Below are positions 6,907-8,594 of a stretch of DNA of 64,000 nucleotides, one piece after another. The stretch covers positions 310,001 to 374,000 of the forward strand of contig NZ_VANU01000002.1 of the NCBI RefSeq assembly GCF_005771535.1, in the 5' to 3' direction. Under the pieces are notes generated by a model that made no database searches, had not been told where the DNA came from, and saw only the letters and a program-made list of their open reading frames with translations. Source of the DNA: Arcobacter arenosus (GTDB taxonomy: Bacteria > Campylobacterota > Campylobacteria > Campylobacterales > Arcobacteraceae). Positions within the stretch are counted from its first letter, which is position 1; every line of letters starts with the position of its first letter. The position numbers and the translations under genes were made by a program.

Positions 6907-7866
6907 ATGAATATTGTAGTGATTGGTGCAGGTGGAATAGGTGCATTTTATGGAATGATTCTAGACAAAGTAGGGTGTAATTTAACCTTTGTTGCTAGAA
7001 ATGAAACCCTTGAGTTTTTGAAAAATAATAAAATGAAAGTAACTTATCAAAATGAAGTTATGGAAAAGAAAATTGATACTTATTCAATTGATGAATTAAT
7101 AAATAAATTTAAACCAGAAGATATTGATGCAGTTTTTATAGCAACAAAAGCAATGAGTACAGAGCAAATCTCAAAAAAACTTAGCTCTTGGACAGAAAAT
7201 AGTTCTAATATTCCTTATTATATCTCTTTACAAAATGGCGTTGAAAATGAAGATATAATGGAAAAATATTACAAAAAAGAGTATGTAATAGGTGGATTAA
7301 CTAGACTTATTGTATCCCATACAATCTCTTTAGGTCATGTTCATTGTGAGGGTGAAGTTCAAACTTTACTTGGAGCTTTAAACCATACAAATGAAAATAA
7401 AAAATTTCTAGATGAGTTAAAATTGATTCTTGATAAAACAGGAACAACAACTTTTGTTTGTGAGGATATTAGATTAGAGCTTTGGAATAAACTTATAATT
7501 AATAATGGGGTTAATGCAATTTGTGCTTTAGTTCAAGAAGAATCAGGACCATTAATAAGAGATGAAAAAACATCAAAGTTAATCTATGGACTTATGAGTG
7601 AAGCAGCAAAAGCTTCAAATGCTGTTGGGGTAAATCTTACACAAGATGATGCAAAAAAGATGTTTGAACTTATGACAAACTTCCAATCAGTAAAACCATC
7701 TATGTGGGTTGATACTGAAAATAATAGAGATTTAGAACTTGATGAAATTTGTGGGGTTGTTATTAGAAATTGCGAAAAACAAGGGCTTGATGCACCATAT
7801 ACAAGAACTATTTCTACTCTTCTAGAGTTTGTATATAATAAAAAAAGAGCTAAAATAAAGGCATAA
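6907..7866 (+). CDS. Ketopantoate reductase family protein (PanE/ApbA)
   Basis: NAD(P)H-dependent 2-oxoacid reductase of 319 residues. The N-terminus carries the dinucleotide motif GAGGIG (residues 7-12). The C-terminal domain has the catalytic lysine in LWNKLIINN (K195), followed by the usual N-A segment and the SMWVD region equivalent to the conserved SM-D motif. PanE converts 2-dehydropantoate to pantoate for coenzyme A synthesis. Paralogues act on other 2-oxoacids, and the E-G motif near residue 280 is written LELDEICG rather than the textbook TEIDyinG, so the exact substrate is less sure than the family. Its stop codon lies inside the terminator of the minus-strand small RNA that follows. 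Confidence 0.8.
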   Translation: MNIVVIGAGGIGAFYGMILDKVGCNLTFVARNETLEFLKNNKMKVTYQNEVMEKKIDTYSIDELINKFKPEDIDAVFIATKAMSTEQISKKLSSWTENSSNIPYYISLQNGVENEDIMEKYYKKEYVIGGLTRLIVSHTISLGHVHCEGEVQTLLGALNHTNENKKFLDELKLILDKTGTTTFVCEDIRLELWNKLIINNGVNAICALVQEESGPLIRDEKTSKLIYGLMSEAAKASNAVGVNLTQDDAKKMFELMTNFQSVKPSMWVDTENNRDLELDEICGVVIRNCEKQGLDAPYTRTISTLLEFVYNKKRAKIKA

Positions 7867-7890
7867 AAAAAGGCTCCTTTGGGAGCCTTT
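7864..7890 (-). terminator. Intrinsic terminator of small RNA A
   Basis: Perfect 9-bp stem AAAGGCTCC / GGAGCCTTT (7869-7877 and 7882-7890) with a 4-base loop. On the minus strand it is followed by a run of seven T. It overlaps the stop codon of the plus-strand PanE-like gene. Confidence 0.85.
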
Positions 7891-7966
7891 CCTGATTTTT
7901 CGGAGAAATGATTTTTATTCGCTTTTTTCTATTTGAGATAGGAGTTCGCGGTTCCCTCTCAACCAA
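7866..7966 (-). ncRNA. Putative small RNA A of a tandem homologous pair
   Basis: About 100 nt on the minus strand, bounded by a TATAAT box (7974-7979) and a strong intrinsic terminator. Near the 5' end is a 30-nt hairpin (7933-7962): arms TTGAGAGGGA and TCCTATCTCAA form ten pairs with one bulged A and the 9-base loop ACCGCGAAC. The linker contains GCGAAT and a single-stranded-looking TTCTCC, then the terminator. The hairpin is repeated base for base in RNA B at 8427-8456, at the same distance from its TATAAT, while linker and terminator sequences differ. Such conservation of structure with drift elsewhere points to a functional RNA. CUCC segments could pair with ribosome-binding sites. I know no named family with this hairpin. 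Confidence 0.72.
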
Positions 7967-7973
7967 TATGTAT

Positions 7974-7999
7974 ATTATAAAGGATGAGAATTAATCATT
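7974..7999 (-). promoter_or_regulatory. Promoter and operator-like box of small RNA A
   Basis: On the minus strand TATAAT (7979 to 7974) lies 12 bases before the hairpin. Just upstream, plus-strand 7983-7999 reads GATGAGAATTAATCATT, a partial dyad (ATGA...TCAT) that is identical in the promoter of RNA B although flanking bases differ. Its place between the expected -35 and -10 suggests a repressor site. It resembles Fur-type boxes only loosely. Confidence 0.55.
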
Positions 8000-8037
8000 T
8001 AGTAATGTTTAATTAATAAAAGGTTAACAAAAACCTT

Positions 8038-8238
8038 TTATTTGAAATTTTGTTCTAAATCTTTCCATGTTAAGTGTTTTTCAATTTTCATTTGATAAAT
8101 ATGTTTTGGAGCTGGAAATTTAAGTTCAATTGGTAAGCAAGCCCATTCCTGTACACTCATATCATTAAAATGATCAACTAATTGATGTTCTTCTTCATTT
8201 GAAATCTTAACCATTTTTATAGATTCTACTCTTTTCAT
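8038..8238 (-). CDS. Small unknown protein between two small-RNA genes, 66 residues
   Basis: 66-residue frame with a strong ribosome-binding site AAGGAG placed 6 bases before ATG 8238, which supports real translation. The protein is charged and soluble-looking with one cysteine, no signal peptide and no membrane helix; it begins MKRVESIKMVKISNEEEHQL and contains a WKDLEQNF tail. I recognise no family. It lies on the same strand as, and exactly between, two homologous small-RNA genes. A weak hairpin AAAAGGTT...AACCTTTT (about 8018-8040) follows the stop and runs into the upstream region of RNA A. Function unknown. Confidence 0.62.
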   Translation of the reverse strand: MKRVESIKMVKISNEEEHQLVDHFNDMSVQEWACLPIELKFPAPKHIYQMKIEKHLTWKDLEQNFK

Positions 8239-8359
8239 TTTAAACTCCTTAGTTTATTTTTATATGAAATTGTATTAGTTTAAAATGATATTAAAGTGAT
8301 GTTTTGGACATATGCTCAAAACTTTAGTGAAAATTTATGATTTTTAGAGATTTTTAGGC

Positions 8360-8386
8360 AAAAAAAAAGGTTCCCTTTGGAACCTT
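8360..8386 (-). terminator. Intrinsic terminator of small RNA B
   Basis: Stem AAGGTTCC / GGAACCTT (8367-8374 and 8379-8386) with a 4-base loop, followed on the minus strand by a run of nine T. It has the same architecture as the terminator of RNA A but a different stem sequence. Confidence 0.85.
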
Positions 8387-8460
8387 CAAATTTTGGAGAG
8401 TTTTTTAATTCGCACTTAAAACTTATTTGAGATAGGAGTTCGCGGTTCCCTCTCAACCCA
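8360..8460 (-). ncRNA. Putative small RNA B of a tandem homologous pair
   Basis: About 100 nt on the minus strand, transcribed toward the 66-residue gene and RNA A. It carries the same 30-nt 5' hairpin as RNA A (8427-8456, identical sequence including the ACCGCGAAC loop). The linker holds GTGCGAATTAAAAA and an unpaired-looking CTCTCC, corresponding to GCGAATAAAAA and TTCTCC in RNA A, and ends in its own terminator. Promoter spacing, hairpin position and total length equal those of RNA A, so the two appear to be a duplicated regulatory-RNA gene. Targets are unknown. Confidence 0.72.
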
Positions 8461-8467
8461 TAAGAAA

Positions 8468-8493
8468 ATTATAATAGATGAGAATTAATCATT
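8468..8493 (-). promoter_or_regulatory. Promoter and operator-like box of small RNA B
   Basis: TATAAT on the minus strand at 8473 to 8468, again 12 bases before the hairpin. The plus-strand box 8477-8493 is GATGAGAATTAATCATT, identical over 17 bases to the one in front of RNA A. Sharing beyond the -10 element argues for joint regulation. Confidence 0.55.
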
Positions 8494-8594
8494 AAGTAAT
8501 AAATTGTTAATAAAAAGTTAACAATTAAACTTACTAGTAAAAAAAGAGCAAATTTTTTATTTACATATATATAATATGTAGAAAAAGGAAAATA

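Follow-up and report, generated by a model that had tools for sequence, protein, structure and literature searches.

In enterobacteria, the sRNAs MicA, RybB, CpxQ, and MicF repress porins under envelope stress. The tandem sibling sRNAs OmrA and OmrB are controlled by a two-component system of the OmpR family and act on the mRNAs of outer-membrane proteins, and PrrF1 and PrrF2 of Pseudomonas are tandem, nearly redundant siblings (PMC4211561). In Campylobacter jejuni, the OmpR-like regulator and kinase CprRS have been linked to the cell envelope (PMC9449129), and in Helicobacter pylori the regulator HP1043/HsrA binds direct repeats TTTAAG-N5-TTTAAG that lie 11 bp apart from centre to centre and replace the -35 box (PMC5253667). 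The literature searched names no sRNA-based branch of the envelope-stress response for Campylobacterota and reports no sRNA output for CprRS.

Two sibling sRNA genes, termed a and b, are predicted in a 64,000-nt stretch of the Arcobacter arenosus genome (assembly GCF_005771535.1, contig NZ_VANU01000002.1, positions 310,001 to 374,000), hereafter called the window. By analogy only, they resemble OmrA/OmrB in their tandem arrangement, similar length, promoter geometry and co-regulated genes that fit an OmpR-type system, and predicted pairing with an outer-membrane protein mRNA. However, OmrA/OmrB pair by their 5' end with Hfq, whereas the candidate pairing parts here are GCGAA loops and a linker complementary to the Shine-Dalgarno (SD) sequence; the mRNA proposed as target encodes the major porin, and there is no Rfam similarity, the Omr model giving no match in an Rfam search of the sRNAs even at an E-value of 5. 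The predicted logic, in which envelope stress leads via an sRNA to a block of porin translation at the ribosome-binding site, is shared with MicA, RybB, CpxQ, and MicF, but these come from another phylum and are unrelated in sequence, and here a four-half-site array is common to several sRNA classes. The window sRNAs belong to none of the OmrA/OmrB or enterobacterial porin-repressor families. An earlier note on this DNA had likened the pair to PrrF1/PrrF2, and the tandem arrangement of near-redundant siblings is indeed shared; Fur control is unsupported. PrrF1/PrrF2 are controlled by Fur and iron, whereas over 36 copies of the family no conserved Fur-box promoter was found and the conserved element is a TTAA direct-repeat array of the OmpR/PhoB type; the PrrF and RyhB models likewise gave no match to the sRNAs in the Rfam search. 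Since this common promoter is an array of direct repeats at 11-bp intervals that also precedes envelope-stress genes, the better parallel is envelope control of the OmrA/OmrB type.

The 30-nt sequence TTGAGAGGGAACCGCGAACTCCTATCTCAA occurs twice on the minus strand of the window without mismatch (Table 1), and shuffled sequence contains 0 occurrences of it at up to three mismatches; the stretch identical in a and b extends beyond it to about 35 nt (GGTTGAG...CAAATA). This sequence folds into hairpin 1, with ten pairs, one bulged A, and the loop ACCGCGAAC, and a terminator hairpin lies further 3'. The earlier note had described two such minus-strand units with TATAAT boxes and terminators, and this layout holds except for the gap between TATAAT and hairpin, which is 11 bases instead of 12; new with respect to that description are a second GCGAA hairpin, a third genomic copy, and an operator of four half-sites that precedes each unit. 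Folded as single sequences, a and b give modest z-scores (-1.7 and -1.2), which were judged uninformative; the case for sRNA units rests on conservation and covariation. Between the two genes lies a 66-aa open reading frame with a good SD (8038-8238, minus strand); it has no Pfam match, and the small open reading frames at other sRNA loci differ from it.

Table 1. Features of the predicted sRNA genes a and b (coordinates of the window)
Feature	Position	Strand	Remarks
sRNA gene a	7866..7968 (also given 7867-7968)	minus	~100-nt predicted transcript; matches of covariance models R1/R2, fold
sRNA gene b	8362..8462	minus	~100-nt predicted transcript; matches of covariance models R1/R2, fold
Hairpin 1, sRNA a	7933..7962	minus	loop ACCGCGAAC
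CGCGAAC in loop 1, sRNA a	7944-7950	minus	complementary to porin leader GUUCGCG
Hairpin 1, sRNA b	8427..8456	minus	identical to hairpin 1 of a
CGCGAAC in loop 1, sRNA b	8438-8444	minus	
Second GCGAAU motif, sRNA a	7917..7922	minus	hairpin 2 position, stem degenerate
Hairpin 2, sRNA b	8399..8424	minus	UGCGAA loop; GCGAAU at 8408-8413
UUCUCC linker, sRNA a	7902..7907	minus	complementary to porin SD GGAGAA
CUCUCC linker, sRNA b	8395..8400	minus	complementary to SD region
Intrinsic terminator, sRNA a	7866..7892	minus	fold
Intrinsic terminator, sRNA b	8362..8388	minus	fold
TATAAT -10 box, sRNA a	7974..7979	minus	
TATAAT -10 box, sRNA b	8468..8473	minus	
Operator array a	7980..8028	minus	four RTTAAY-type half-sites repeating every 11 bp, 10 bp upstream of TATAAT
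Operator array b	8474..8522	minus	four RTTAAY-type half-sites, 11-bp period

A search of the window against Rfam 15 gave 0 matches at the gathering threshold, with weak best scores far beneath it, in line with the earlier statement that the units are unlike any known family. A first custom covariance model (R1), built from the two window copies, identified a third copy in the source genome (copy c, G000:C1:496444-496562) and five more in the genus; its weak matches in other genera (E-values of 1e-3 to 0.1) proved on reading to be mostly coding sequence. A second model (R2), built from these eight copies, has matches in all 16 genomes of the genus, with one to five copies each that are often in tandem, and also in other genera; the loci were inspected singly and chance matches were discarded. 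A synteny search via the neighbouring DUF2237 protein reached no further copies. In three genomes, tandem sRNA copies are located downstream of genes that, by eye, resemble msrP and msrQ (L052, L057, L066).

In the alignment of 38 distinct rows, two-sided changes occur at 21 of the 24 pairs and 91% of the cells pair. The covariation score is 0.419, a value reached by 0 of 500 shuffles, and compares with 0.173 in the shuffled control and at most 0.172 when the structure is slid; fitting the alignment to the structure works in favour of the score, yet both controls remain far lower. The claim that these are duplicated RNAs under selection, tied in the earlier note to conservation of the hairpin and compensatory changes in related genomes, is thereby upheld at the level of structure; at up to three mismatches the exact hairpin sequence is private to the A. 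arenosus genome among 104 genomes of the bacterial family, and exact-hairpin matches in 14 viral contigs and two unrelated bacterial genomes were judged to be chance. What relatives retain is, most of all, the promoter, together with the stems, the GCGAA loop, and the linker complementary to the SD. GCGAA stands in the loop of hairpin 1; hairpin 2, which is A/U-rich with a GCGAA loop, is present in most copies, degenerate in a, clear in b, and absent in some. A single-stranded SD-complementary stretch (CUCC, UCUCC, or UUUCC) follows 3' of the hairpins, and then the terminator. With their own promoter and terminator, conserved structure, and compensatory changes, units a and b show the general features of trans-acting sRNAs, and we classify them as putative sibling genes, presumably transcribed, of a multi-copy trans-acting sRNA family that was previously unlisted.

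Alignment of the 36 copies (22 genomes) on TATAAT revealed the common pattern RTTAAC-N5-RTTAAC-N5-RTTA-N7-RTTAAY-N10-TATAAT, in which the half-sites are exactly 11 bp apart and the fourth ends 10 bp before TATAAT. The information in this alignment begins sharply at -49, with little farther upstream. Among 399 genomes of the order, the array has about 150 matches at up to two mismatches and the reversed pattern has 0. Within the window and 20 flanking regions, all matches scoring at least 26/28 lie ahead of an RNA of this family. As judged from the sequence, the array has the geometry of OmpR/PhoB-family regulator sites. It also stands upstream of htrA, LTXXQ (Spy/CpxP), EptA, OEP (TolC), and OmpR-type response regulator (RR) genes, the last as seen in genome G431, and the sRNA classes behind it comprise, in addition to the window pair, those adjoining uvrD, a HAD-like gene, an unnamed 135-aa gene, and an MscS-like gene. 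In the source genome, genes for an OmpR-type regulator and a kinase (HK) come after htrA, and the promoter of this htrA-RR-HK operon contains a version of the array that has three mismatches when RTTTAY is also allowed as the last half-site. In genome G083, an OmpR-type regulator and a kinase are encoded directly upstream of one sRNA copy. We conclude that the sRNAs are predicted envelope-stress RNAs under an OmpR-family regulator. The most likely candidate is the regulator of the htrA-RR-HK operon, an assignment that we infer, as the htrA promoter of the source genome departs from the array at three positions. The order of genes resembles that of CprRS in C. jejuni, which likewise lies next to htrA. 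Outside the family, the array was observed before genes for htrA, LTXXQ, a MoxR-like ATPase, and an OmpR-type regulator (L163, L164, L165, L168, L170, L172, L173), thus the array regulon may predate the sRNAs.

Since the regulon resembles an envelope-stress response, the major porin (MOMP, PF05538) was inspected as a candidate target. Its leader has GUUCGCG at -49 to -43, the SD region reads AGGAGAACAA, and codons 3-5 read AAAUUCGCA. The sRNA loop CGCGAAC is complementary to GUUCGCG, the second loop to codons 3-5, and the linker to the porin SD, which supports, as a prediction, the earlier suggestion that the CUCC stretches are placed so as to block ribosome binding. GUUCGCG was found in 0 of 343 other translation starts of the source genome sample and only twice in 376 kb, a number explained by the two sRNA loops of the window read on their antisense strands. 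The porin had been singled out by eye before it was ranked, by an accessibility-corrected seed score with two-site sums, against a background of 344 messages drawn from stretches that total 376 kb and make up about 12% of the source genome. It ranked 4 or 5 of 344 for copy a, 1 for copy b, and 24 for copy c, which is weak on its own (27 of 300 shuffles reach its value); by the summed two-site score of the three own sRNAs the porin is first of 344, and 0 of 300 shuffles reach this sum. Over 26 sRNA copies from the source and other genomes, the median rank of the native porin is 4 of 344. Over 32 further array-driven RNAs the median is 15, and for 11 of these the porin comes first or second; the ranks in other genomes are approximate, as the background consists of the source genome's genes, and related copies are not independent. 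In several clades the linker matches the SD over a length of 9, for instance UGUUCUCCU with AGGAGAACA and UUGUUCUUC with GGAGAACAA.

Conservation of the porin leader extends over more than 30 genomes from several genera. In the consensus structure of 22 leaders, GUUCGCG does not pair and is enclosed by a stem for which only eight pairs are predicted. The leader is long (AACGGT-CCGG ... GTTCGCGCG-CCGG ... ACTG; L265:796-931 and porin loci L240-L264), and a tandem second porin copy usually has no conserved leader. One clade has a porin without GUUCGCG (G003, G005, G007, G012, G013, G014, G015, G027, G031), and the array-driven RNAs in G003, G007, G012, G013, G014, G027, and G031 have no matching loop, several of them retaining SD complementarity; this joint absence probably represents one or two evolutionary events. 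The sRNA loops of G004 and G094 contain GCGAU and the porins of the same genomes read AUCGC, which suggests compensation; these pairs were not counted as proof, because a G054 loop has GCGAU without such a porin. In G084 the porin motif is present, yet its two array-driven RNAs are without a GCGAA loop. Of the functions predicted for the sRNAs, these comparisons best support repression of the major porin.

Several other explanations were weighed. The cncR1 gene of H. pylori is an sRNA gene. Its promoter is among those bound by HP1043/HsrA, whose sites repeat directly at the same 11-bp interval and take the -35 position ahead of a housekeeping -10, albeit as two TTTAAG half-sites instead of four of the RTTAAY type (PMC5253667). 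The same sRNAs, with the same target, might thus have their operator read by another OmpR-family regulator, for instance an orphan of the HsrA/CosR type, and report growth or redox state, not envelope damage; we consider this unlikely, as the array's other genes are htrA, Spy/CpxP, EptA, and TolC-like, and the array precedes the OmpR-type RR gene of G431 and, more weakly, the source htrA-RR-HK operon. Far less credible, and the least so of the explanations considered, are PrrF/RyhB-like iron-sparing sRNAs repressed by Fur: the dyad ATGA-N7-TCAT (ATGATTAATTCTCAT) that lies upstream of TATAAT in a and b is missing from most of the 36 copies, which keep the TTAA direct repeats, and was rejected as a basis for iron control, and no iron gene was found behind the array among the matches examined.

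Both genes could also be cis-acting leaders or attenuators of a downstream gene (uvrD/rep in many genomes) with no action in trans, and in most genomes of the genus a UvrD-type helicase gene does follow the main locus directly on the same strand. However, neither a nor b precedes uvrD, gene a runs into a convergent panE-like gene, the copies adjoin many different genes, and a strong conserved terminator closes each copy before the next gene, all of which makes such a role highly improbable. Somewhat less remote, though still improbable, is binding of a protein by the GCGAA loops as a sponge or stability element, with the porin GUUCGCG as an independent structural element and the match a coincidence. 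Two loops of one RNA share an invariant GCGAA, a trait of protein-titrating RNAs, and the porin leader is kept even where the uvrD-adjacent sRNA of a genus has a different loop; the great rarity of the complement GUUCGCG, the SD-linker matches of 9 in several clades, and the clade in which leader motif and matching sRNA loop are jointly missing argue for pairing with the porin instead.

We regard it as probable that sibling sRNAs activated in the OmpR/PhoB manner block the porin under envelope stress. A regulator of the OmpR/PhoB family would bind the four 11-bp-spaced half-sites and activate the TATAAT promoter, and the resulting RNA of about 100 nt would expose GCGAA motifs in loop 1 and, in b and most relatives, in loop 2, followed by a single-stranded linker (CUCC or UUUCC) that leads to the terminator. 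Under envelope stress, CGCGAAC of loop 1 would contact GUUCGCG of the porin leader, and hairpin 2 and the linker would pair in vivo with porin codons 3-5 and the SD, whereby translation would be blocked. A broader version, for which the chances appear slightly short of even, is that one envelope-stress regulator drives at least five sRNA classes, which have only the operator in common and converge on the porin, that GUUCGCG is a dedicated docking element conserved across many genera, and that this element and the sRNA loops were lost together in one clade. For this family of sRNA genes the operator is now defined, and candidates are at hand for both the regulator and the target site. If the proposal is true, the enterobacterial logic of porin shut-off would have evolved independently, and repeated sibling duplication and retargeting could be traced over many genomes.

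Not every sibling is predicted to target the porin. In several other genera the copies next to uvrD carry the loop GACGCAGCGAC and rank the porin 174-344 (rank 40 in G011), hence the target is not common to all siblings, and those with the GACGCAGCGAC loop, which mostly do not match the porin, must have another one. A target complementary to the conserved CCUUGUGUG of the uvrD-adjacent class (CAAGGAAACAT before ATG) was sought, and no recurrent gene emerged. The uvrD-adjacent RNAs of other genera have an invariant loop AGTTGACGCAGCG(A/G)CTT together with TTATGTTTCCTTGTGT (L137, L143, L146, L178, L180, L197, L200, L280, L281). A second array-driven class, mostly located beside the HAD-like gene, has a short hairpin accompanied by a bare anti-SD stretch, UUUUUCUCCUCCU (L134-L136, L138, L140, L142, L145, L147).
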